Part shown: positions 3,268 through 51,361 of the stretch, in pieces
Numbering within the stretch: the stretch's first letter is position 1
Layout of the letters: each line of letters begins with the position of its first letter
Assembly: GCF_009392895.1 (NCBI RefSeq)
Contig: NZ_CP045488.1
Span: forward strand, 1,736,001-1,800,000
Direction of reading: 5' to 3'
Length of the DNA: 64,000 nt
DNA from: Natronorubrum aibiense
Lineage (GTDB): Archaea; Halobacteriota; Halobacteria; Halobacteriales; Natrialbaceae
Translations under genes and position numbers: made by a program
The notes under the pieces: model-generated
What the model saw: only the letters and a program-made list of their open reading frames with translations
Databases searched by the model: none
Told to the model about the DNA's origin: nothing

Positions 3268-5841
3268 TCACTCGCGGTCGGCCCCGAGCAGCGATCGGGA
3301 GGAGTTGCCGACGATCAGCAGGCCGCTTACGATCAGCGCCGCAGTTGTGACGACGGGACTCAACAGTCCCGCCAGCGCGACGGGGATCACGAGCGCGTTG
3401 TAGGCGAGCGCGAGCCAGCCGTTCTGGACGACGCGCCGGCGAGCGCCGCGTGCGATCGCGAACGCCCGCTCGACGGCGGTGAGGTCGTCTTCGACGATCG
3501 CGAGGTCGGCGGCGTCGGCGGCGAGCGCCGTCCCACCGCCCAGCGAGATGCCGAGATCGGCGGCGGCGAGGGCGGGCGCGTCGTTCGTCCCGTCGCCGAC
3601 CATCGCAACGCGGTTGTCGGCCCGTAGCCGTTCGATCGTCGCCGTCTTCGCCGCGGGAGAGACGTTTGCGAAGACGTGGTCGATACTCGAGTGCGCCCGG
3701 AACTGGGCTGCCGCCGAGTCGTCGTCGCCGGTCAGGATGACGACGTCGACGCCGCTATCGGCGAGCGCCGTCACCGTCTCTTTCCACTCCGCGCGCGGTT
3801 CGTCGCCGACGACGATGACCCCTTCAGCACGGCCGTCGCGCCCGACGACGGCGGGGAGGTGGCCGTCCGATCGGACGGCTGCGACGCGCTCCTCGAGGTC
3901 GGTATCGATCGCCCACCCCTGATCGCGAAAGAGGTCGGGATGGCCGACGAGCACGCGCTGGCCGTCGACGACGCCCTCGACGCCGGTCGCGTGGCGTTCG
4001 AACGCCCGGATTCGCCCGCTTCCCGGCCCGGTGCTCGCATCCTCGTCCGCGACGCCGCCGTCAGTCCGCGTTGAGTCCGCTCCGTCGTCGGCGAAGGCGG
4101 CTTCGATCGCCGCGGCGGCGGGGTGTGCGCCGCGTCGTTCGATCGCCCCGGCCGCCGAGAGGAGGTCGTCCGGAGCGTCCGCCTCGAGGACGGTCATCTC
4201 GCCGGTCGTCAGCGTCCCGGTCTTGTCGAAGACGACGACGTCGACCGCGCGGAGCCGTTCGAAAACGCTCTCGTCGAAGACGACGATGCCGGCCTCGAGC
4301 GCGTCGCGGATGCTGGTCGCGATCGAGTACGGCGTCGCGAGCGCGAGCGCCCACGGGCTCACGGCGATGATCGCCACGAGTGCGGCCGTCGTGGTCGTCA
4401 GGGGCCCGTTGCCCAACACCACAGATCCCAGCGCGGCGGCGACGACGGCGACGGCGACGACCGGGAGCAGTCGCCCGGCGAGGGCGTCCGCCCGGTGCTG
4501 GACGCCGTGATCGGCGCTCTGGAGGTTCCAGACGGTGCGCGTCAGCTGGTCGATGCTGCTCGTCGTTCGCTCGCCGACAGCGACGACGGCGGCGTTGCCC
4601 GTCACGACCGAGCCGCCGACGACCGGATCGCCGGCCGATTTCGAGACCGGGAGCGACTCGCCGGTGATGACCGCCTCGTCGACCGTACACTCCCCTTCGG
4701 CGAGCGTTCCGTCGACCGGGATTCGCTCGCCTGCCCGAACCAGCAGGCGGTCGTCGGCGTCGACCTCCTCGACCGGCGTCTCGGTGGTCGAGCCGTCAGC
4801 CTCGAGGACGCGAGCCGTCCCGACCTGCGAGACCGTGAGATCGGTGAGTCGGTTCATCGCCGTGCGTTTGATCGACTCCTCGTAGAAGACCGCGGCCATG
4901 ACGGTGGCGGCGATGAGGATCGTCAGATCGTAGTAGATGTGGGGATCGCTGCGGGCGAACGAGAGCGTCCCGTAGCCGAACGCGGCGAGGATCGAGAGCG
5001 CCGCGAACAGATGTGTACTCGGCCGCCGAAGCTTTAGACTGATGTACGCGCCGCGCAACAGCGGCATTCCGGTCAAATAGAGGACGATCCCGGTCACTAC
5101 GAGAAAGGTCCGCAGGAACAGCAACCCCTCGAAGTTCGCGAACGCCCCGCTATAGCGCTCGAACAGCCAGTAGTCGGTGTACGCCGAGAGATACACCGGG
5201 TACAACACCGAGGCGTACGGCACGAGCAGAAACGAGCCGAAGAGAATTCCGACGATGTAGCGCACCTCGAGGACGTCCTCCGACCGGCGTTTTCGTAGCC
5301 CGCGCATTTCGCGGGATCGACGCGTGGTACTCGAGTCGTCCGTCGTGGCGTCGTCTGTCTCCGCGTCCGCCGCCTCGTCGCGACGGTACGCCGTGTAGCC
5401 GGTCGTCGTCAGCGCGTCCTCGAGCGTCGCCGCCGAGACGCGGTCGGGGTCGTGGTCGACTCGGACGGCCTCCGTGACGTAGCTCGCTTCGGCGTCCGAC
5501 ACGCCGTCGATACCGTCGGCGACCGACTCGAGATACTCCTCACAGAGCGCCGAGTGCATCCCGTCGACCCGGAAGAACGTGCGCGTCTGCGAGGCAGCCG
5601 AATCGCTAGAGTTCTCGGGGCCGGTATCGCCGTCGACGTGCTCGACGGTGCCGACAGCACCGTCAACTGGTCCGAGTGCAGCGGCGACGTCACGACAGCC
5701 CGACGAACAGAACGGGCCGTCCGCGACCGTTTCAGAGCCCGTCTCGGTGGGCGGTTCGGTGATCGCTGTCCCGCAGAGGCGACAGCGGTCGTGGTCCGTT
5801 CGCTGATCGCTCACGAGTCGAGATAGCGCGCTCGAGGACAA
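3268..5841 (-). CDS. heavy-metal P1B-type ATPase with unusual metal motifs
   Basis: An 857-residue membrane cation pump. In order it has a TRASH-like Cys pair (C20-x2-C23 and C45-x3-C49), an HMA-like domain (about 88-155), transmembrane helices, the actuator motif TGES at 393-396, the phosphorylation motif DKTGT at 539-543, an HP dipeptide and the hinge GDGTND. This layout is that of CopA/FixI-type P1B ATPases. Two metal sites deviate: the HMA loop is GMHSALC instead of GMxCxxC, and the membrane CPx motif is SPW (495-497) instead of CPC or SPC. The transported ion is therefore not predictable; copper is the family default. The catalytic cycle residues are all present, so the pump itself looks functional. 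Confidence 0.85.
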   Translation of the reverse strand: MSSSALSRLVSDQRTDHDRCRLCGTAITEPPTETGSETVADGPFCSSGCRDVAAALGPVDGAVGTVEHVDGDTGPENSSDSAASQTRTFFRVDGMHSALCEEYLESVADGIDGVSDAEASYVTEAVRVDHDPDRVSAATLEDALTTTGYTAYRRDEAADAETDDATTDDSSTTRRSREMRGLRKRRSEDVLEVRYIVGILFGSFLLVPYASVLYPVYLSAYTDYWLFERYSGAFANFEGLLFLRTFLVVTGIVLYLTGMPLLRGAYISLKLRRPSTHLFAALSILAAFGYGTLSFARSDPHIYYDLTILIAATVMAAVFYEESIKRTAMNRLTDLTVSQVGTARVLEADGSTTETPVEEVDADDRLLVRAGERIPVDGTLAEGECTVDEAVITGESLPVSKSAGDPVVGGSVVTGNAAVVAVGERTTSSIDQLTRTVWNLQSADHGVQHRADALAGRLLPVVAVAVVAAALGSVVLGNGPLTTTTAALVAIIAVSPWALALATPYSIATSIRDALEAGIVVFDESVFERLRAVDVVVFDKTGTLTTGEMTVLEADAPDDLLSAAGAIERRGAHPAAAAIEAAFADDGADSTRTDGGVADEDASTGPGSGRIRAFERHATGVEGVVDGQRVLVGHPDLFRDQGWAIDTDLEERVAAVRSDGHLPAVVGRDGRAEGVIVVGDEPRAEWKETVTALADSGVDVVILTGDDDSAAAQFRAHSSIDHVFANVSPAAKTATIERLRADNRVAMVGDGTNDAPALAAADLGISLGGGTALAADAADLAIVEDDLTAVERAFAIARGARRRVVQNGWLALAYNALVIPVALAGLLSPVVTTAALIVSGLLIVGNSSRSLLGADRE

Positions 5842-10393: not shown

Positions 10394-10714
10394 ATGAGTG
10401 ACTCCGCCGATACCCAGTCCCCGGAAGACGCCGTTAGAGAAGCTGTCTCCCTGTTCCTCCAGCGGAACTTCCCACAGATTCAGGCCCACGGTGGCGACTC
10501 GTCGATCACCGAGGTCGACCTCGAGGCAGGTCACGTCTCGATCAACCTGAGTGGTGCCTGCAGCGGCTGTGGCGTCAGCCCGATGACGACCCAGGCGATC
10601 CAGCGCCGACTGCCGAGCGAGATCGACGAGATCGATCGCGTCTCGGTGACGACCGGCTTCGACGGCCTGACGGAGGGAACGCCTCGAGATATTTCCGACG
10701 ACGTCCCGTTCTGA
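10394..10714 (+). CDS. NifU C-terminal-domain Fe-S scaffold-like protein
   Basis: A 106-residue protein consisting of a NifU C-terminal (Nfu) domain, which carries and delivers Fe-S clusters. The cluster-binding CxxC is seen in SGACSGCGVSP, preceded by the family's GGDSSITEVD strand and followed by MTTQAIQRRL. It starts at the ATG at 10394, with the promoter-like ttatccg about 20 bases upstream. No other Fe-S assembly genes are adjacent, so it probably acts as a free-standing carrier. Confidence 0.85.
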   Translation: MSDSADTQSPEDAVREAVSLFLQRNFPQIQAHGGDSSITEVDLEAGHVSINLSGACSGCGVSPMTTQAIQRRLPSEIDEIDRVSVTTGFDGLTEGTPRDISDDVPF

Positions 10715-10816
10715 GTGGCCGTCAGTCGTACGTTTTTCCGGTAGCCGACAGGACGGTTCGTTCCGATACCTTCGGCGTTCGACACGCTTTACCACCTTCG
10801 TTGCGAAATCGCAGCC

Positions 10817-12628
10817 ATGAGTTCCGTTCCCGACCGCTCCGAGGTCGACGAGGTGTACACCTGGGACCTCGAGAGCATCTACGCGACCGACGACGACTGG
10901 GAGGCCGCCTACGAAGCGGTCGCCGAGCGCGTCGACGAGCTCGCCGCTTACGAGGGACAGGTCACCGACGACGCCGAGACGTTGCGTGCTGTCCTCGAGT
11001 TGCGCGACGAGATCATGCGCGAGGTATCGACAGTCGCTGCGTACGCTCGAATGCGCCGCGATGAGGATACGACCAATCAGGAGTATCAGGCACTGACCGC
11101 GCGAGCCCAGTCGCTGGCGGCCGACGCACAATCCGCTGCCTCGTTTATCGATCCCGAGATTCAGGAACTGACCCGCGAGGAGTTCGAGGAGATGGTCGAG
11201 GCCGAATCCACCCTCGAAACCTACGACCACTACGTCGACGACGTCCTCCGGATGAAACCCCACACCCGATCGGCGGAAGTCGAGGAGCTGCTCGCGGATT
11301 TGAGCGAGGTCACGGGCGCGACAGGCGAGGTCTACACGATGCTTTCGAACGCCGACATGGAGTTCCCCACCGTCGAGGACCCTGATGGCGAGGCTGTCGG
11401 GATTACCCAGAGCAACTTCGTGAACCTGCTCAAACGCCCCGATCGGGAGTTTCGACAGCGCGTCTACGACGCCTACTACGATGAGTGGGAGTCGGTCCGA
11501 AACACGGTCGCGACCGCCTACAAGAACAGCGTCAAAGCCGATGTGAAGACGGCCCAGGCGCGTAACTACGACACCGCCCGTGAGGCCGCCCTCGACGGGC
11601 CCAACGTCCCCGTCGACGTCTACGATACGCTCGTCGAGACTGTCCACGACAACCTCGACAAACTCCACCGTCACGCCGACCTCAAAGCCCAGGCGCTCGA
11701 GGTCGACGGCCTCGAGATGTGGGACGTCTACATGCCCCTCACCGGCGACGAAGGGCCGGACGTCGACTACGAGCAGGCGACCGAGTACGTCGTCGACGCG
11801 CTCGAACCGCTGGGCGAGGAGTACCAGTCCCGCGTTGCCGAGGGACTCGATTCCCAGTGGGTCGACGTCTACGAGAACGAGGGTAAACAGTCGGGTGCCT
11901 ACTCCGGCGGCACCTACGACACCCAGCCGTTTATCCTGATGAACTATCAGGACGACATCTCCTCGATGTACACGCTGGCCCACGAACTCGGCCATTCGAT
12001 GCATTCGGAACTCACGAAAGACGAACAGCCGTTCGTCTACTCCGGCTACGAGATCTTCGTGGCCGAAGTCGCCAGCACGGTCAACGAGGCCCTGCTGACG
12101 AACCACCTCCTCGAGACCGTCGACGACCCCGAGTTCCGCAAACATGTCTTGAACGAGTTCCTAGAGCGCGTGCGCTCGACGCTCTACCGCCAGACGCTGT
12201 TCGCGGAGTTCGAGCACAAGACCCACGAACTCGAGGAGGCGGGCGAACCGCTGACGGCGGACCGACTCGACGACCTCTATCAGGGGCTCAAAGCGGACTA
12301 CTACGAGCCCGCCGCGATCGACGACCGCATCGCCCGCGAGTGGATGCGCATTCCGCACTTCTACCGGGCCTTTTACGTCTACCAGTACGCGACCGGTATC
12401 TCCGCCGCGCTGGCGATCGTCGACGGGATCCTTCCGAACGGTGCCAGCGACGAACCCAACCGGGATGCCGCCGAGGACTACCTCGAGTTCCTCCGGCGTG
12501 GCTCCCGGGAGTACCCGCTCGAGCTGTTGCGGATCGCTGGCGTCGACATGAGTACGTCCGAGCCGATCGATCGCGCCCTCGAGACCTACGGCGAACGGCT
12601 CGACGAGATGGAAGCGCTGCTCGAGTAG
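10817..12628 (+). CDS. pepF: oligoendopeptidase F (M3 family metallopeptidase)
   Basis: A 603-residue cytoplasmic zinc peptidase of the M3B/PepF group, which cleaves short peptides. The HExxH zinc motif is HELGH at residues 389-393, followed 25-30 residues on by the third ligand region (GYEIFVAEVASTVNE). Length and the C-terminal Y.YATGISAALAI segment match PepF. It lies 65 bases upstream of the proteasome ATPase gene on the same strand. That suits a role in trimming peptides released by the proteasome, though this is inferred from position only. Confidence 0.93.
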   Translation: MSSVPDRSEVDEVYTWDLESIYATDDDWEAAYEAVAERVDELAAYEGQVTDDAETLRAVLELRDEIMREVSTVAAYARMRRDEDTTNQEYQALTARAQSLAADAQSAASFIDPEIQELTREEFEEMVEAESTLETYDHYVDDVLRMKPHTRSAEVEELLADLSEVTGATGEVYTMLSNADMEFPTVEDPDGEAVGITQSNFVNLLKRPDREFRQRVYDAYYDEWESVRNTVATAYKNSVKADVKTAQARNYDTAREAALDGPNVPVDVYDTLVETVHDNLDKLHRHADLKAQALEVDGLEMWDVYMPLTGDEGPDVDYEQATEYVVDALEPLGEEYQSRVAEGLDSQWVDVYENEGKQSGAYSGGTYDTQPFILMNYQDDISSMYTLAHELGHSMHSELTKDEQPFVYSGYEIFVAEVASTVNEALLTNHLLETVDDPEFRKHVLNEFLERVRSTLYRQTLFAEFEHKTHELEEAGEPLTADRLDDLYQGLKADYYEPAAIDDRIAREWMRIPHFYRAFYVYQYATGISAALAIVDGILPNGASDEPNRDAAEDYLEFLRRGSREYPLELLRIAGVDMSTSEPIDRALETYGERLDEMEALLE

Positions 12629-41003: not shown

Positions 41004-41060
41004 ATCGCGTATGCAAACCCACATCGTCCCGGTCGGGTTCGACTACGACCGGCTGATCGC
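41004..41060 (+). repeat. attL: left 57-bp attachment repeat
   Basis: Identical to 50452-50508. It covers 7 bases before and 50 bases from the ATG of the regulator gene, so the recombination site lies in a protein-coding start region instead of a tRNA gene. Flanking bases differ at once on both sides. Confidence 0.88.
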
Positions 41061-41067
41061 GCCTTAG
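41011..41067 (+). pseudogene. 18-codon stub of the interrupted regulator gene
   Basis: The left repeat copy keeps the ATG and first 16 codons of the gene now complete at 50459. Two element-derived codons and a TAG follow, giving MQTHIVPVGFDYDRLIAP. It should still be transcribed from the presumed native promoter (a TATA-like ttgattac at about 40981) and could run on into the integrase gene. Confidence 0.65.
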
Positions 41068-41107: not shown

Positions 41108-42124
41108 ATGCAAGACCAGAAACTCGAGCCGATTGCACCGGATGAAGCAGTCAGTCTCTACCTTCAGGATAGAGAAAACGAATTGGCGAACGGGACGATC
41201 AAATCCTATCGGCACAAGCTGACGAGATTCGTAGAATGGTGTGACCAAGAAGAAATAGAGAATCTAAATACGCTATCGGGACGTGATATACTTCGGTTCA
41301 AACAGTCCCGGTCTAACGTGCTCAACTCTGTGTCATTAAAGGGCCAAATGGACACACTGAGGAGTTTCATTCGATGGTGTGAATCAATCGACGGAGTAGA
41401 ACAGGATCTCCACAATAAGGTCATGTCTCCTACTCTAAGCCAAGGAGACAGGGAGAGAGACATCTTGATTGATTCAGAGATCGCCAAAGATATTCTCGAA
41501 CATTTGTCCCGGTTCGAATATGCTTCACTCCATCATGCACTCCTCACTCTGCTATGGCGTTGTGGAGCAAGATCTGGAACAGTCCGTTCCTTCGATCTTC
41601 GGGACTACGAGAGAGAGAATCAAAGACTGGAGGCGAAACATCGTCCTGAAACTCCACTAAAGAACAAGAAACGAGGGGAGAGGCTAATTGCACTCAGCTC
41701 CGATGTATGCCAAGTCCTGAACGACTACATAGACCATAACCGGGAGAAGGTAACAAATGAACCAGGACGAAAGCCGTTACTCACAACTCAATTTGGACGG
41801 ATTTCAAAGTCTACTATTCGAGAAACCTGTTATCGGTGGACTCATCCCTGCCAATATAATGGCGGTGAGTGCCCACACAGTCGGGATATGGATGAGTGTC
41901 AAGCCCTGAATCCACCCAAGAAAGCACCCTCTCTATGTCCATCCTCTCGTAGCCCTCACGCTTGGAGAAGAGGTGCTATCACTCACCATCTTACTGAAGA
42001 TGTTCCTATAGAAGTTGTGAGTGACCGGATGAACGTCTCTCGAGACGTATTGGATCAGCATTACGATAGACGGTCTGAAGAGGTGAAGGTAGAACAAAGA
42101 CGGGAATATCTATCAAATATTTAG
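41108..42124 (+). CDS. tyrosine recombinase/integrase of the element
   Basis: A 338-residue site-specific recombinase. The N-terminal core-binding domain (about 10-105) is followed by the catalytic domain with Arg155 (GARSGT), Lys in KNKKRGER (about 185-191), His284-x-x-Arg287 (HAWRR) and nucleophile Tyr319 (LDQHYD). All catalytic residues are present, so it is likely active. Between Arg and HxxR lies a cluster of five cysteines (C241, 248, 255, 264, 277), probably a zinc-binding insertion. A TATA-like tatatc lies about 30 bases upstream, and a GGAG sequence lies six bases before the ATG. The gene is not split by integration, unlike SSV-type integrases. Confidence 0.93.
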   Translation: MQDQKLEPIAPDEAVSLYLQDRENELANGTIKSYRHKLTRFVEWCDQEEIENLNTLSGRDILRFKQSRSNVLNSVSLKGQMDTLRSFIRWCESIDGVEQDLHNKVMSPTLSQGDRERDILIDSEIAKDILEHLSRFEYASLHHALLTLLWRCGARSGTVRSFDLRDYERENQRLEAKHRPETPLKNKKRGERLIALSSDVCQVLNDYIDHNREKVTNEPGRKPLLTTQFGRISKSTIRETCYRWTHPCQYNGGECPHSRDMDECQALNPPKKAPSLCPSSRSPHAWRRGAITHHLTEDVPIEVVSDRMNVSRDVLDQHYDRRSEEVKVEQRREYLSNI

Positions 42125-42154: not shown

Positions 42155-43030
42155 TTAGTTTTCGCCAAACCACTTATCTAATGTTTCCTGTGGCTCTTCT
42201 TCCTCTAATTCTTCAAGCACCTCCATACATTCGCGACGAAATGATTGGCTGGTTCTCACGTAATAGGTTTGGCCACTTTCTTCTAATTTCCTCATATCTT
42301 CGTCCATACTCCTTTCATTAAATTTAACTAGAATATGATTTATCTTTTTAACTATTTGGGCCTTCCCCTCCGTGCTTAATAACTTCCAGTAATCATGGAT
42401 ATCACTAGCTATTTCTGTTGCATCAATTTTACCCCCATCTGTTCTTACAGAAGCAGATTCCCTAGAGATGGACTCTGACATGAGGTGTCGCAATAATCGT
42501 TGACCGATTATCGGTAGTGGATCCTCGGGAGAAAATGGATAAAACTGGGTGGGTATCTGACGAGGAATGGTGCTTGAATGGATGAGTTCATTGAGAGTAT
42601 CATCAGCAAATTTATTTCGTTTTGAAATGGTCCCTGCACTTCGATCAAACACTAAGCCAGGATCGTCAATATCCAAATTAGAAAAAGATTGGTCAAGATC
42701 ATTCATTCCCGAGTAAACTATTTCATGACTATCTATACTGTCACTCTCCGGTACTTCCCTCTTTATATTGTCTGTCTTAATATCAGAGTTCTTTTCTACT
42801 TCCTCAATTGTTAATCCATTTGTTCGACAGTCAGTCAATAAAACACGATCATGACACTGGAGAAGGATCTCCGGGTTCACTCTTTGACCTGATTTGTTCC
42901 GAAAGGAAGGGTGTAATTTTCGTAAATTATATCCTGCTCTATCTAATGGAGTTGGCCAATTCCGTGGCCCTCCCTCCGCCAGTCCAATGCACATGTTAAT
43001 CAGCTTTGACTTATCAGATAATCTGGCCAT
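42155..43030 (-). CDS. unknown protein with possible nuclease-like N-terminus
   Basis: A 291-residue protein from ATG 43030; an ATG at 43063 would add 11 residues. I do not recognise its family. The segment at residues 51-72 (VNPEILLQCHDRVLLTDCRT) has the look of a PD-(D/E)xK core: a PE/PD turn, a strand, then D-x-basic, here D67-C68-R69 with Arg in place of the usual Lys. The remainder is helical, with a Glu-rich C-terminus. It overlaps the upstream gene by 17 bases, so the two are almost surely one operon. The low GC content matches the element. A defence or anti-defence role is inferred only from the setting. Confidence 0.6.
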   Translation of the reverse strand: MARLSDKSKLINMCIGLAEGGPRNWPTPLDRAGYNLRKLHPSFRNKSGQRVNPEILLQCHDRVLLTDCRTNGLTIEEVEKNSDIKTDNIKREVPESDSIDSHEIVYSGMNDLDQSFSNLDIDDPGLVFDRSAGTISKRNKFADDTLNELIHSSTIPRQIPTQFYPFSPEDPLPIIGQRLLRHLMSESISRESASVRTDGGKIDATEIASDIHDYWKLLSTEGKAQIVKKINHILVKFNERSMDEDMRKLEESGQTYYVRTSQSFRRECMEVLEELEEEEPQETLDKWFGEN

Positions 43031-44165
43031 GCATACTCCCTTCCAGTGTTGCTTCTGAATCAAAATAGTGTTGGATGTTAGTATAAAGCCTTAGGATTAC
43101 ATTTCCACAACTGTCTTCAGGGAGATAGATTCTCATCCAATTCGGAGCTACCTCGAGGTCTAATTCATCTCCAGTATGAAGATCTACCGCTGAAACACTA
43201 TAATAATCCTCGTCAATCTGGTTTTCTAACCCCCATAATCGGAATGGCTTAGTAGAACCTAATAAAGTAGAAAAGAACGACTCAAAGTCTGTTATCTCAC
43301 GGTCAAAACTTATCAAAACTGGCTCTCCAGTGAGATTTCCACCGTACTTGTCGACCCCTCTTTTTATTGCATAATCTTCTTCAAGTGAATATAGAATATC
43401 TTTATATTTGTCTTTTATTTCTTCTATCTGATAGAAATGGCCATCAACCGAATCGCCTCTTGCGGTAAACTTCGCTGTGTGGGTAATATCTTCTAAAAGA
43501 ATTCGACCATCGTCAAATGCTCTTCTAATACCAACATTGGAGAGTGAAGTAGATTTCCCTAGTGTTTCGTCGCCACTTAATGTTGAAAGAACTTTCTTAG
43601 CGTTTTCTCCCCATAAACGCATTGACATTTTTGAGATTTCTCTCGCTGTAGGATGTTCAGAACCGTCTTCTTGGGATCTTGCCTTCTGGAATTCGTCTTC
43701 AAATTTCAGAGAGAAGCTTCTAAAATCATTTCTTGGGCTTTCTCCTATGTTCCTCAGAAAGCTATTCGAAAGCCATGAATAGTCGAGCTTGGTGAATCGA
43801 GGGAAAACGAGTTTGTCAAGCAGGCTATCACTATTTTTTGATTTTGCTAAGCTGTGTACTGCCCAGAACCTTTCATCAAGATTCTCAATATAGAATCGTG
43901 CTTTCTTATCGGAACCTAGCTTCCTAATTTGAATGTTTTCAAAGTCGCTTTCTCGAGTCTTATCCCTTTTAAGTCGATAATCTTCGGTATCCCCTAAAAG
44001 GCCTTTTGTGGTTGGCCGTTCCGACTCGATCAAGTATGATTTTAAATATGTCTCCCCTTCGTTTAGCTCTTGATTCTGATTCACAGAATCGTATGAGTCA
44101 ACCATTTTCTCTTGAAGGAGCTCTTTTAACTCCATTCTTGACGAGATCATGGCTGACCCAGACAT
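43014..44165 (-). CDS. unknown protein, first gene of a two-gene operon
   Basis: A 383-residue soluble protein without recognised domain. It is rich in Lys, Glu and Ser, unusual against the acidic host proteins, and mixed alpha/beta. The C-terminal 120 residues (PVLISFDREITDFESFFSTLLG..., DLEVAPNWMRIYLPED) look like a separate beta-rich domain. A good TATA box (tttaaata, 44190-44197) lies 25 bases upstream of ATG 44165, implying a leaderless transcript. It overlaps the following gene. The pair is transcribed away from the channel-fusion gene, with which it shares a divergent promoter region. Confidence 0.6.
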   Translation of the reverse strand: MSGSAMISSRMELKELLQEKMVDSYDSVNQNQELNEGETYLKSYLIESERPTTKGLLGDTEDYRLKRDKTRESDFENIQIRKLGSDKKARFYIENLDERFWAVHSLAKSKNSDSLLDKLVFPRFTKLDYSWLSNSFLRNIGESPRNDFRSFSLKFEDEFQKARSQEDGSEHPTAREISKMSMRLWGENAKKVLSTLSGDETLGKSTSLSNVGIRRAFDDGRILLEDITHTAKFTARGDSVDGHFYQIEEIKDKYKDILYSLEEDYAIKRGVDKYGGNLTGEPVLISFDREITDFESFFSTLLGSTKPFRLWGLENQIDEDYYSVSAVDLHTGDELDLEVAPNWMRIYLPEDSCGNVILRLYTNIQHYFDSEATLEGSMHGQII

Positions 44166-44189
44166 GTTAATGGGTATTCCCTCGGGTGG

Positions 44190-44197
44190 TTTAAATA
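44190..44197 (-). promoter_or_regulatory. TATA box of the unknown two-gene operon
   Basis: The sequence tttaaata lies 25-32 bases upstream of ATG 44165 on the minus strand. This is the spacing of a leaderless archaeal transcript. Confidence 0.5.
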
Positions 44198-44250
44198 TTC
44201 ACCTGATTCTTCTATGTTGGAAACATTGATGCCTTCTAACAATTTTATAA

Positions 44251-45783
44251 ATGAGATGCATGAACTGTGATATGGATCGATGCGGAGAAATCTTTCAGTG
44301 GTCATCTAAATACAATCCACTAGGACGAGACTTAGAAAGAACGTCTGGTGACGTAACTGCAATCTCTTTTTCGAGACAAAAGATTCGGAACCACTGTTGT
44401 TATAGAGAAACCATACCAGGAAGTGATAAGTGTTATTGGCACACAAAAAAGGAAAAAACTCAGAAGGAATTACAACAAAATCTGGGCGACCACGATGAGC
44501 CTGTTGGGAATGCCTATATTTCGGGTGAATTCAAAAATCTTGATCTTCTAGTAGAGTTTCCAGAAGCTACTTTTGAAGACTGCACATTCAAGAATGTTGA
44601 TTTCACCGGGTCTCTTTTCCCGAATGCAGTTTTTATGGATGTTGAATTAACTGATTTCAAATTCGATCAATGTGTGCTACAGGGTTCAAAGTTAGATAAT
44701 GTGAATGATATGAAACAAGGTAGAAGTAGTCTCCAACAATGTGACTTAAGAGGTACTATCCTATCTAATGTTGACTTTAAGGGGGGAAATTTTGAAGGAT
44801 CCGTGTTTAATGTGAGATCTAGATTAGAGAACAGCACAGAGTTAGATGGTGCAAATTTTCAAAATGCGGATCTCGAGGAAGTAAAGTGGCAGAATATTGA
44901 TCTAACTAAATCGGATTTCACAGGCGCGAACGTTCAAAATGCAAACTTCTCTAATAGTACTTTAGTTCAAACTATATTTAGCCATGCAAATTGCTTAGGT
45001 GCGGATTTTTCTAATGCGGATCTTGAGGGTGCGAAATTTGATCAAGCATACTTAGTTGGATCAAATTTTATTGGTTCCGAATACCATAATGCAGTATTAT
45101 CTGATGTTCAAATTGATCATACTACAGAATTTGATGAAACGTCTTCGTATCAACGAGAAGATGCACCTCCCGGGAAATTCGAGAATAGATCCGTACGCGA
45201 TCTCAAAGCTTTGTGGACATATAGGACGTTACAGAACGTATTTAGAGAGAACGGGATGATAGAAAAATCTAGACAATACTATGTGAAGGAGAAGGATTTG
45301 CGACGCGAGCAATACTGGCGACAATTTAGAAATGAAGCTACATTATTGGAAAATCAAGATGATTTTTTGCGGATTTCTCTTGAAGACCGACCTAAACTGA
45401 AATGGCTGGTGTTTCTATTCCGAGCACTTCGAGCAGAGTCATCTAAATGGATAATAAGATTTGGAGAAGGTATTGAAAACTTAATCATATCTGCAATACT
45501 AACCATAATTGGATTCGGTATTGTTTATCCATTAACTGGTCTGAATACTTCAACTGGCGAATATAGATTTAAGTTCCCTGTCGAATTGAGTGATCTTCTA
45601 AATGTCTCTTGGAGTCCTTTTCTTGAAGGGCTTCTTTTTAGTGTTCTAACTTTTACACCAGGTAATAGTGGTGATATTACTCCTATAGGATTCTCCCAAG
45701 TATTGGCAATCATAGAAGCTTCACTTGGAACAATTTTCTTCGCTCTAGTGGTCTTTGTATTAGGTCGTCGTACCACACGGTAG
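44251..45783 (+). CDS. zinc-finger/pentapeptide-repeat/ion-channel fusion protein
   Basis: A 510-residue protein in three parts. The N-terminus has Cys and His residues (C11, C49, C50, C61, H64) suited to a zinc finger ending in KCYWHT. Residues about 85-290 are pentapeptide repeats of the A(N/D)F/LxX type (GANVQNANFSNSTL, GADFSNADLEGAKF), which fold as a right-handed beta-helix. After a charged helical linker, the last 100 residues hold two transmembrane helices around a pore loop TFTPGNSGD (467-475), as in two-helix potassium channels but without the TxGYG filter. An ATG at 44272, 28 bases after a ttataaa, may be the true start. It could be a gated membrane pore. Confidence 0.75.
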   Translation: MRCMNCDMDRCGEIFQWSSKYNPLGRDLERTSGDVTAISFSRQKIRNHCCYRETIPGSDKCYWHTKKEKTQKELQQNLGDHDEPVGNAYISGEFKNLDLLVEFPEATFEDCTFKNVDFTGSLFPNAVFMDVELTDFKFDQCVLQGSKLDNVNDMKQGRSSLQQCDLRGTILSNVDFKGGNFEGSVFNVRSRLENSTELDGANFQNADLEEVKWQNIDLTKSDFTGANVQNANFSNSTLVQTIFSHANCLGADFSNADLEGAKFDQAYLVGSNFIGSEYHNAVLSDVQIDHTTEFDETSSYQREDAPPGKFENRSVRDLKALWTYRTLQNVFRENGMIEKSRQYYVKEKDLRREQYWRQFRNEATLLENQDDFLRISLEDRPKLKWLVFLFRALRAESSKWIIRFGEGIENLIISAILTIIGFGIVYPLTGLNTSTGEYRFKFPVELSDLLNVSWSPFLEGLLFSVLTFTPGNSGDITPIGFSQVLAIIEASLGTIFFALVVFVLGRRTTR

Positions 45784-45804: not shown

Positions 45805-45902
45805 TTTAATTCGAAACCGATCAAAGCGTCAGCCGACGTCCCCGTTATCTTGGTTTAATTCGAAACCGATCAAAGCGTCAGCCGACGTCCCCGTTATCTT
45901 GG
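45805..45902. repeat. perfect 49-bp tandem direct repeat (two copies)
   Basis: Two adjoining identical units, 45805-45853 and 45854-45902. Each starts tttaattcgaaaccg and ends gttatcttgg. The unit is more GC-rich than its surroundings and does not resemble a CRISPR repeat; there is no spacer. It lies 21 bases after the channel-fusion gene. It could be a duplicated 3' element, a recombination product or a protein-binding site. Confidence 0.85.
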
Positions 45903-46369: not shown

Positions 46370-47929
46370 CTAAATATTCTTTCGAGTTATATTCGAAGAA
46401 GAGTAATTAGGCGTCCAATCGTATTTGTTACAAGCTGATCGGATATGTTTGTTTGTTAACTTTGGGTCGTAGTTGTCGCCGTATTGTTCCTTGAACCAAT
46501 TTCTGGTTCCGTCTACTCTATTAATAGATAATTGGCGCAGCATCACGAACAGACGCTCTCCATGTGTGAGAGATTCAATTCCCTTCTCTTCGGCTTGTTT
46601 CTGCAATCTAAATGCTCTAGATTCGTTCTGCTTCGAAGGGGGATGATCATTTCTGTAGTTTGATGGATGATATCCTGATTCACCTGTATCGTAGTCAAAT
46701 GCTTCTAATGTCTCGATAGCCTCGCTAAAGGAACCTGATCCCGCTATGATTTTTGCTACAAAGATTCGGGGTTTGTAGATCCGACTTTTTCTGGATTGGC
46801 CGCCGATGAGAACAAAGAAATCACCTTCTTGGATTCCTTTCGTGGTGAATTTCTCATAGTCTGGTTTCGAAAGTTGGATCGGACGATATTCTCTCGCTTC
46901 GATTTGATATTTTCGATCACATGCCCAAAAGTTATACAATTGACAAGGGACGAAAGTCTGAGTCTGCTTGCCGTTGTAATCCCCGTTCGCATCTCGTTTC
47001 TCTCCGAACGGTCCATCAATAACCTTGGCTATCAGCAGGCTTCGATTCCCGTTTCCTGCATTTGCGTATGGACTTACCGGGTGCGAATAGTGTGCTTTCC
47101 ACTTCTGGTGATTAGCTCCCCGATATGGTTCGAATCGTTCCCATGAATTAAGACCGGGATCGATAGGTTCGTTCTCTGTATTCGTCTTTGGTTCCCACAG
47201 ATGATTTTCAGGGTCCTTGAGTACATCTGAAGGGAACGTATCAGTAAGCACTTCAGCAAACGATTGTGGCTTCTTCACGTCGCTTTCAGTGGCTTCCTTG
47301 ATGATTCTCTCATGGGACCATTCGGGTTCGATCTTAACTTTCGGTAGTTCTGTTTGTTCGTGGCTAGTTCCGGGAAGTCTGAATAACCGCTTCTTAGTAT
47401 ATATTTGAGAGTCTATGTCGTACTCGAACTCTTTCGCCATCTTTCGCAATATTTCCAAGTCATTCTGTTTCACGAAATTCGGAAGATGAGCGTGAATTGA
47501 TCGTCCCCCGGAAAAGTACCACGTACAGGCAGAGGGATCTGTATTTAGATAATTCAAGCAAAAATCTTCAATCCAATCAATTTGTTTTTCCAATGAAATT
47601 TCTGCATCGGATTCGATATAGAGGGGATAATAGACTCTTCCTTCGGCTTCTGCTTTATCTTGAAGCTTCTTGGCGATGTTCTTACCAGAAACAGCATATG
47701 GGTTCTCCAATTTATGTTGTTCCTTGATTTCATCGAAACCTAAATAATAAATTGGAGACCCAAAAGACATCTCCTGTGATAGTGATTTAAAAGCACTCTG
47801 AAGAATCGGCTCTGGATTCGTTGGGGATTCTGCCAATCGGATGTATGGCTCATATTGCGCCGTTTCTGCTTCATTCTGTTCCGTAGTGGATTTCTGCTTG
47901 ATCGGAGCTGTACCAGTTTGTGACTTCAT
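46370..47929 (-). CDS. primase-like replication protein of the element
   Basis: A 519-residue protein. Residues about 55-200 look like an archaeo-eukaryotic primase domain: a strand ending in YPLYIESDAE (acidic pair near 106-108) and the motif FSGGRSIHAHLP (139-150), which matches the family's SGxRGxH site for nucleotide binding. The C-terminal 200 residues are unassigned and could contain a DNA-binding domain. No helicase motifs are seen. It starts two bases after the stop of the small gene upstream, so they are translationally coupled. It is probably the replication initiator or primase of the element when excised. Confidence 0.65.
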   Translation of the reverse strand: MKSQTGTAPIKQKSTTEQNEAETAQYEPYIRLAESPTNPEPILQSAFKSLSQEMSFGSPIYYLGFDEIKEQHKLENPYAVSGKNIAKKLQDKAEAEGRVYYPLYIESDAEISLEKQIDWIEDFCLNYLNTDPSACTWYFSGGRSIHAHLPNFVKQNDLEILRKMAKEFEYDIDSQIYTKKRLFRLPGTSHEQTELPKVKIEPEWSHERIIKEATESDVKKPQSFAEVLTDTFPSDVLKDPENHLWEPKTNTENEPIDPGLNSWERFEPYRGANHQKWKAHYSHPVSPYANAGNGNRSLLIAKVIDGPFGEKRDANGDYNGKQTQTFVPCQLYNFWACDRKYQIEAREYRPIQLSKPDYEKFTTKGIQEGDFFVLIGGQSRKSRIYKPRIFVAKIIAGSGSFSEAIETLEAFDYDTGESGYHPSNYRNDHPPSKQNESRAFRLQKQAEEKGIESLTHGERLFVMLRQLSINRVDGTRNWFKEQYGDNYDPKLTNKHIRSACNKYDWTPNYSSSNITRKNI

Positions 47930-48451: not shown

Positions 48452-48868
48452 CTAATTCGTGGGATACCTGTCCCTGAAGTCCTCAAGTGTTGTCCCGATC
48501 AGTTTATTGTAAAGACACTCTGCATCCCAGAGATCAATGGTGGTGTCGCTATTTCGCTCAATTTTGTCTGCCGTTTCTAACGCACCCTTTGTGAAGGAGA
48601 CTGCAGTTACAGCTGTTTCTGATACATTGTGTTCAGATGCAGCGCCTGCGATTTCACGGATTTCACCCGGTCCAACACCCTCTCGATTAACTACTTCAAC
48701 AATCACCTCTCTCCTTCCTCGATTCAAAATAACATCATGACCACCGTCTCCTGTCGCTTTCGTTCGAGTTGTGTCCCACTCTTCGTATTCGAGGATATCT
48801 TGTACTACCTTTTCGAGTGTAGCGTGATCATGACTCGATATCCAGTTATGAAACGATGGTGGAACCAT
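48452..48868 (-). CDS. Mrr-fold protein lacking the catalytic lysine
   Basis: A 138-residue single-domain protein matching the Mrr endonuclease fold: TGDGGHDVIL (Asp45), a strand REVIVEVVNRE, then VGPGEIREIAGAA, VSFTKGALETAD and DLWDAECLYNKL. In active Mrr enzymes the strand ends QxK; here the triplet is E58-V59-V60, so the metal-site lysine is missing. The protein may bind DNA without cutting, or use another residue. It starts at ATG 48868, with a TATA-like ttttaatagg 23-32 bases upstream. Confidence 0.72.
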   Translation of the reverse strand: MVPPSFHNWISSHDHATLEKVVQDILEYEEWDTTRTKATGDGGHDVILNRGRREVIVEVVNREGVGPGEIREIAGAASEHNVSETAVTAVSFTKGALETADKIERNSDTTIDLWDAECLYNKLIGTTLEDFRDRYPTN

Positions 48869-50451: not shown

Positions 50452-50508
50452 ATCGCGTATGCAAACCCACATCGTCCCGGTCGGGTTCGACTACGACCGG
50501 CTGATCGC
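50452..50508 (+). repeat. attR: right 57-bp attachment repeat
   Basis: Identical to 41004-41060. It includes the last 7 bases before the start codon and the first 50 bases of the regulator gene, which continues intact to the right. Confidence 0.88.
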
Positions 50509-51361
50509 CCCACTGGTTCGCGATCAGATCGACGTCGATAGCGTCATTTTGCTCGAGGGTGCCGTCGGCAGCGAGGCCAACGTCGAGTACTCGCGTCGGC
50601 TCTCGAAGAAACTCGAGACGGACTTTCGGAACTTACTGGGGGCGAGTACGGAACGGTTCGTGCTGGCGGACGTGTACGACTACGACGCCGCCTTCGAGCA
50701 GGCCTACGAACTCATCACCACGGAACTCGACGACGGAAACGAGGTCTGGGTCAACATCGCTGCGATGCCGCGAACCGTCAGTTTCGCCTTTGCGAACGCT
50801 GCCCACTCGCTGATGGTCGAACGTCAGGACGACCGCGAGCATATCCACACCTACTACACCGCCCCCGAGAAGTACCTCGAGACGGAACTCGCCGAGGAAC
50901 TGCGCGAGCAGATCACGCTGCTTGAGTCGTTTCGCGACGCGGGCGAGATCGACGACGAACGGATCGACGCTCGCCTCAAGAGCGCACAGGAGTTACTCGC
51001 TGAGTTCGACGAGCGCGGAACGACCATCGGCGCGAAGGAGATCGACGGCAAGCACATCGTCGAGCTCCCGGTGGCCTCGTTTTCGAACGTCAAACCCTTC
51101 GAGGAACTCATTCTCTACAAACTCGGCGAGGACGGCGAGTTCAACTCGGTCTCGGAACTCGCCGAAGCGCTCGCTCGCGAACTGAACGAGGAGTACACTG
51201 ACAGCTTTCGCTCGAAAGTCATCTACAACGTGGATCGGCTCGGCCCCGGCGGTAAAGGCTACATCGAACGCGAAGAACACGGGAAATCCTACCGAACGCG
51301 TCTTTCGCGCATCGGCGAGTTGTGGGTCCGGGCTCACTCCGATAGCGGCCTCGAGCAGTAA
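50459..51361 (+). CDS. CARF-like/winged-helix regulator (HFX_2341-type)
   Basis: A 300-residue protein. The N-terminal 140 residues form a Rossmann-like domain: MQTHIVPVGFDYDRL, a strand VDSVILLEG, and VWVNIAAMPRTVSFAFANAA, which occupies the place of the ligand loop in CARF domains such as that of Csa3. A helical spacer follows, and the C-terminal 90 residues are a winged helix (ILYKLGEDGEFNSVSELAEAL). I associate it with the haloarchaeal HFX_2341/DUF6293 family, from memory. It may sense a nucleotide and regulate transcription. Its first codons coincide with the element's attachment site, so its promoter is foreign although the coding sequence is complete. Confidence 0.75.
   Translation: MQTHIVPVGFDYDRLIAPLVRDQIDVDSVILLEGAVGSEANVEYSRRLSKKLETDFRNLLGASTERFVLADVYDYDAAFEQAYELITTELDDGNEVWVNIAAMPRTVSFAFANAAHSLMVERQDDREHIHTYYTAPEKYLETELAEELREQITLLESFRDAGEIDDERIDARLKSAQELLAEFDERGTTIGAKEIDGKHIVELPVASFSNVKPFEELILYKLGEDGEFNSVSELAEALARELNEEYTDSFRSKVIYNVDRLGPGGKGYIEREEHGKSYRTRLSRIGELWVRAHSDSGLEQ

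Follow-up and report, generated by a model that had tools for sequence, protein, structure and literature searches.

A haloarchaeal zinc-pentapeptide channel beside a gene pair with one degenerate nuclease-fold member: a candidate membrane effector on an integrative element

We analysed a window of 64,000 nucleotides from Natronorubrum aibiense (NZ_CP045488.1, positions 1,736,001 to 1,800,000), in which a putative channel gene is transcribed away from a two-gene operon, here called PairA and PairB. The channel gene is an open reading frame of 510 codons (44251..45783, plus strand), PairA encodes 383 residues (43014..44165, minus strand) and PairB follows it (42155..43063, minus strand). Between them lies a divergent promoter region (44166..44250) with a TATA-like TTTAAATA (about 44190) facing PairA and a TATA-like TTTATAAA (about 44244) facing the channel, both apparently positioned for leaderless starts. 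The channel probably starts at the Met at 44272: TTTATAAA stands about 26 bp before it, and the starts of relatives fall in the same vicinity. The divergent arrangement noted in the preliminary description is confirmed, with a spacer of about 85-86 bp. Directly 3' of the channel gene, a 49-nt unit occurs in two perfect tandem copies (45805-45902).

The channel protein combines, in order, a CCCH zinc site, a pentapeptide-repeat helix, a helical linker and a two-transmembrane (2TM) pore domain. The pentapeptide helix (residues about 106-290; 44566..45120) matches the Pfam Pentapeptide family in five stretches (E 4.8e-30), and Ion_trans_2 matches residues 455-509 with 22.6 bits, just above its gathering score of 22.5. 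Hydropathy gives two hydrophobic segments, with peaks at 411-429 (TM1) and 486-504 (TM2), which frame the pore domain (45481..45762). The zinc ligands (C11, C50, C61 and H64; 44281..44442) and W63 are invariant in all 20 aligned relatives, which were chosen as full-length family members, so the N-terminal cysteines form a real CCCH site; the looser pattern C..C..CxWH occurs in 31 of 45 channel-family proteins. Pfam, the invariant CCCH and hydropathy therefore bear out the earlier claim that a zinc finger, a pentapeptide helix and a two-helix channel are joined in one protein.

The loop between the two transmembrane segments is TFTPGNSGD (467-475), reading TPGNSG where most relatives read TLGYG, and the potassium-channel signature T-x-G-Y/F/M-G is absent from it. 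A strict T[LIV]G[YFM]G filter is present in 31/45 channel-family proteins, which places the window protein in the minority that has lost it, just as the preliminary description had read this loop. By eye, five further family proteins have near-intact filters and nine, the window protein included, are clearly degenerate. Seven more family loci have a degenerate filter with no adjoining PairAB (L030, L034, L035, L036, L045, L046 and L047), and filter loss has apparently occurred repeatedly in this family.

PADLOC-DB 2.0.0 has no family for any of the three window proteins, and against 26 PairA and 26 PairB members it gave only weak matches to single members (best E 0.0018); Pfam gave PairA and PairB only single-member or sub-threshold matches, and PDB sequences gave nothing convincing for either. 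Good AlphaFold2 models (pLDDT 82.6 for PairA and 85.1 for PairB) predict that residues 1-160 of PairB form the alpha/beta core of a PD-(D/E)XK nuclease, with many matches, each of them middling (Foldseek probability up to 1.00, best Z 8.4): the R2 endonuclease domain (probability 0.99-1.00), EndoMS (Z 7.9), XisH, SdaI, FokI, BsmI, McrC and Can2. Residues 172-280 match the winged-helix proteins MukE, JetC and CymR; we class the PDB entries matched by PairB as PD-(D/E)XK or winged-helix proteins.

PairA is predicted to consist of two alpha/beta domains, with weak matches to CENP-L (the best, Z 9.4), RdgC (Z 8.9) and viral TATA-box-binding proteins (TBPs). Best Z scores of 9.4 for PairA and 8.4 for PairB are middling, a level that the comparison tool itself calls common, and we read PairA as a TBP/RdgC-like nucleic-acid-binding or scaffold fold without taking these matches as proof. 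Its residues about 266-380 also weakly resemble the N-terminal and NRD domains of RnlA of RNase LS (Foldseek probability 0.92, E 5.8e-3; Z 6.0), but the matches to PairA included no HEPN nuclease domain. We know of no counterpart of PairA in restriction systems.

The three genes lie on an integrative element. Repeat search and flank comparison located 60-bp direct repeats, 98% identical and 9,448 bp apart, that bound it: a left att repeat at 41004..41063 and a right one at 50452..50511, which overlaps the 5' end of the target gene (50459-51361). That gene is chromosomal and carries HFX_2341_N and DUF7776. The repeats were absent from the observations of the preliminary description. Between them, GC content is about 40%, compared with about 63% for the chromosome. 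Five of nine congeners (G002, G005, G006, G007 and G008) have empty sites, where the left flank runs straight into the right one with an overlap of roughly the repeat length; the site in G009 was considered as a further insertion and rejected, since the DNA examined there holds ordinary genes.

Besides the trio, the element carries a tyrosine recombinase/integrase gene (41108..42124, plus strand; assigned from profile and sequence matches), a 519-aa protein, an Mrr-like nuclease and a 327-aa protein. The integrase is 49% identical to one beside the related trio at locus L083. That trio, too, lies on an insertion, of tRNA type and about 12.6 kb long, between a tRNA-Phe gene at 18408-18481 of L083 and a copy of that gene's end at 5759. 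The small Mrr_cat-type nuclease (48452-48868, minus strand; Pfam E 5.1e-13) is a possible second defence gene. Pfam found no match for the 519-aa protein (46370-47929, minus strand) and no family above cut-off for the 327-aa protein; YFSGGRSIHAHLP in the former may resemble archaeal primase motifs.

Association of the channel with the pair extends beyond this element. The closest full-length channel homologues found in 392 genomes of the order are in G339 (36% identity), G162 (32%) and G366 (32%), with E values from 5e-81 to 2e-55, and in all three PairA-PairB divergently adjoins the channel across a spacer of 89-129 bp. The co-occurrence search that the preliminary description had called for found the pair at 4 of 45 channel loci and a channel homologue at 4 of 30 pair loci, within flanks of usually 8-10 kb (L109 is short, cut at one side). 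These are the same four loci, the window and its three closest channel homologues, and in each of them order and orientation are fixed, with PairA next to the channel. Neighbour clustering of 556 open reading frames from the 45 channel loci returned no other recurrent partner as consistently close; the remaining recurrent neighbours were broad families (ABC ATPases, integrases) or common chromosomal context. The earlier suggestion that the three genes belong together is well founded, given the same divergent pair beside the three closest channel homologues and the window copy on an integrative element.

In the PairA tree, the four channel-bearing rows form one clade (99/99). Loci L084 and L085 come from different families and have alignable DNA in common only across the trio, which in L085 is matched by a block of about 41-45% GC inside DNA of about 65% GC; their spacers hold a promoter-like block in common. 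Across the three genes, pN between L084 and L085 is 0.063, 0.175 and 0.290, against a saturated pS of 0.78-0.85. With synonymous sites saturated (pS 0.77-0.85 overall), only the contrast of pN (0.063 to 0.444) with pS was used, and the saturation indicates that the trios of L084 and L085 do not reflect a recent transfer. All three genes are under protein-level constraint and none is pseudogene-like. We conclude that the three genes very probably constitute one mobile unit.

PairA and PairB also have a life of their own. At E<=1e-5, PairA was found in 28 of the 392 genomes of the order, in 24 of which we read the hit as near full length, and PairB stands beside every near-complete PairA found. 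Contigs of Methanosarcina and Methanoregula carry PairA too, as do plasmids of Methanocaldococcus jannaschii, Halobacterium hubeiense, Lysinibacillus and Metabacillus, where it is annotated hypothetical. PairA-PairB is a mobile two-gene family of archaea and bacteria. Viral contigs searched with a PairA relative gave no match. Of the 30 counted pair loci, 26 lie within A3/A4, with L108 and three plasmid loci outside; partial or broken PairA rows were left out (G392/L137, L113, G130, G329, G143 and L108/L157). Channel-free pairs often adjoin type I restriction-modification genes, large helicases, recombinases and toxin-antitoxin genes, functions mostly read by eye from sequence except in annotated plasmid records, and this company suggests defence islands.

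One residue separates pairs with a channel from pairs without one. The N-terminal domain of PairB appears to have the fold of PD-(D/E)XK restriction endonucleases. Where no channel is present, PairB retains the PD...(D/E)xK motif; in the trio it lacks the lysine of that motif. The pair has no methylase. The catalytic lysine is kept in 26/26 channel-free PairB, including those of methanogens, M. jannaschii and two Bacillaceae plasmids; the 26 comprise 22 aligned rows (16 clusters at 90%), L108, whose PairB was counted here and whose PairA was left out of the alignment, and three plasmid proteins read by eye. It is lost in all four channel-bearing PairB, which read DCR (the window), ECE, DCS and NCE. 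Because these four loci are one clade, lysine loss and channel gain count as one evolutionary event, not four. Measured against PairA, PairB also diverges more quickly in the branch with the channel (56/35 and 89/71%, compared with 83/76, 60/50, 93/92, 60/54, 69/63 and 64/53%), and the differing lysine replacements together with this faster divergence fit a protein released from catalysis. Alternatively, catalysis might persist through the arginine of DCR in the window protein or through a lysine at another position.

Combining these observations, we propose a model in which the ancestor of PairA and PairB was a restriction-like module of two genes, its PairB being a PD-(D/E)XK nuclease with a winged helix. 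In the branch that gained the channel, PairB lost its catalytic lysine, so the PairAB complex most likely no longer cuts. It would instead read a nucleic-acid state, such as foreign, damaged or degraded DNA, and hold or trigger the pore, either by contact or through the pentapeptide or zinc part of the channel. Infection, or loss of the module, would open the pore, which would dissipate ion gradients and stop growth. Two of the four trio channels keep an intact TLGYG and two lack it, so loss of the potassium filter is no part of this mechanism; the permeating ion need not matter, and depolarisation would serve with or without a potassium-type filter.

Nucleic-acid binding by PairAB, its control over the channel and the direction of that control, conduction by the pore and a purpose in defence are all inferred. 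The reading we favour, with slightly less than even confidence, makes the channel the membrane effector of a mobile module and the nuclease-less PairAB the nucleic-acid sensor that controls its pore, in an abortive-infection or guard system. More tentative is the fuller claim that this is an undescribed immune module, in which an inactivated restriction-like pair serves as sensor and foreign or degraded DNA opens a zinc-pentapeptide pore. The gated pore with a sensor domain envisaged in the preliminary description is upheld as plausible only.

The strongest competitor, which we nevertheless consider unlikely, is an addiction module: the channel would be a toxin, PairA/PairB an antitoxin and a repressor whose winged helix acts on the common promoter, and the trio would serve to keep the mobile element. 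In favour of such an arrangement are the divergent order around an 85-bp common promoter region, the winged-helix matches in PairB, the location on an integrative element and the promoter-like spacer block common to L084 and L085. A dedicated antitoxin, however, should not behave as this pair does, occurring without the channel in 26 of 30 loci and keeping its nuclease motif there. Defence and addiction are not mutually exclusive.

Somewhat less probable still is that one cassette holds two independent defence genes, PairAB acting on foreign DNA by binding or residual cleavage and the channel acting alone. PairAB does work without the channel elsewhere, and the channel family mostly lacks the pair, which adjoins only 4/45 channel loci. 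Yet independence would leave without explanation that lysine loss coincides exactly with the channel, that order and orientation are fixed in 4/4 trios, and that the divergence of PairB, relative to that of PairA, is faster in the branch with the channel.

The wider channel family gives some footing to a third alternative, a little less likely again, that the mobile element captured an ordinary osmotic or potassium channel with no role in defence. At E<=1e-18, the Zn-pentapeptide-2TM architecture is found in 57 of the 392 genomes of the order, often within ordinary neighbourhoods; 31/61 relatives match at E<=1e-3, pentapeptide-only matches included. A subgroup of about 350 aa occupies a conserved chromosomal one (L037, L038 and L097). 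The window protein belongs to this family by its N-terminal CCCH, its pentapeptide repeats and its Ion_trans_2-type 2TM C-terminus, and it shares with the haloarchaeal proteins annotated "pentapeptide repeat-containing protein" the zinc site, the pentapeptides, a Y..L..EN linker and a 2TM domain ending in FVLGRR. Most of those proteins, unlike the window channel, have a T(L/I)GYG-type filter and no PairAB. A captured transport channel would fit a family common in haloarchaea, with a strict potassium-type filter in 31/45 members and some stable chromosomal neighbourhoods, but the degenerate filter of the window protein speaks against it, and a fixed link to a restriction-like pair is unexpected for a transport gene.

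The same survey does not support one part of the preliminary description, that the architecture by itself marks an abortive-infection effector. Since the family is common, usually has a potassium-type filter and includes a stable chromosomal subgroup, architecture alone is no sign of defence, and the wider channel family is not defence-linked. Searches of viral contigs with the channel protein and of phages with its C-terminal part gave no match, nor did PDB sequences give anything convincing for the C-terminus. In the literature collection searched, we found no paper on a pentapeptide-repeat potassium channel in haloarchaea, nor on such a protein as an ion-channel transmembrane effector of phage defence.

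A Hailong-type system with a diverged HalA is very improbable: the NCBIfam HalA model matches channel residues 200-510 (40.2 bits, E 2.2e-10) and 12 of 20 channel-family members at E<=1e-3, but its curated cut-off lies at 250 bits, the C-terminal 218 residues by themselves score 15.1 bits (E 0.0098), so that much of the signal is pentapeptide, the trio channels of L084 and L085 have no HalA match at 1e-5, and Pfam and NCBIfam scans of seven element proteins found no nucleotidyltransferase. Sub-cut-off matches in 5 of 14 control genomes indicate that weak HalA matches say little, and HalA exceeded its curated cut-off in 0 of 21 genomes scanned. We therefore rejected Hailong membership, on a HalA score far below cut-off and the lack of a HalB nucleotidyltransferase partner among the seven element proteins scanned.

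Hailong is nevertheless the nearest functional analogue. This anti-phage system consists of a HalA channel and a HalB nucleotidyltransferase; it is reported to make single-stranded DNA that restrains its effector, and HalB poly-dA adducts are reported to block the HalA ion channel (PMC12657230, PMC13275509). Both systems place pentapeptide-like repeats before a C-terminal ion channel, and in both a separate partner that handles nucleic acid controls the channel, or in the trio would do so. The trio differs in its TBP/RdgC-like and degenerate PD-(D/E)XK partners, its N-terminal CCCH site and its lack of a nucleotidyltransferase; without being a member, it may work like Hailong.

The trio may well represent a novel alarm-and-kill defence, directed at viruses or foreign DNA. 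If so, it would show how a DNA-cutting module can evolve directly into an alarm-and-pore system and would add a pore-based candidate to archaeal immunity. Haloarchaea would then hold intact and retired versions of one pair, open to side-by-side comparison, and PairAB, a hypothetical pair known from Methanocaldococcus to Bacillaceae plasmids, would become a concrete target.

Channel-free pairs offer some further observations. The M. jannaschii plasmid (L159) and two Bacillaceae plasmids (L160 and L161) carry PairA-PairB annotated as hypothetical proteins only. Small transmembrane or NYN proteins beside some channel-free PairA genes (L049, L050, L051 and L156) were considered as alternative effectors and set aside, no recurrent family emerging among them. 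In Halorubrum aquaticum (L051, 5290-7490), adjacent genes for 361 and 372 aa, without a Pfam family, stand beside PairA/PairB; inspection by eye suggests a second, distant PairA-like/PairB-like pair, with a small transmembrane protein between the two pairs. Two related channel-free loci have an NYN-domain RNase-like gene divergent to PairA, in L050 at 10693-11205 (Pfam E 3.4e-18) and in L156, where it was recognised by eye 243-725 bp upstream of PairA, and this gene is possibly an alternative partner of PairA.
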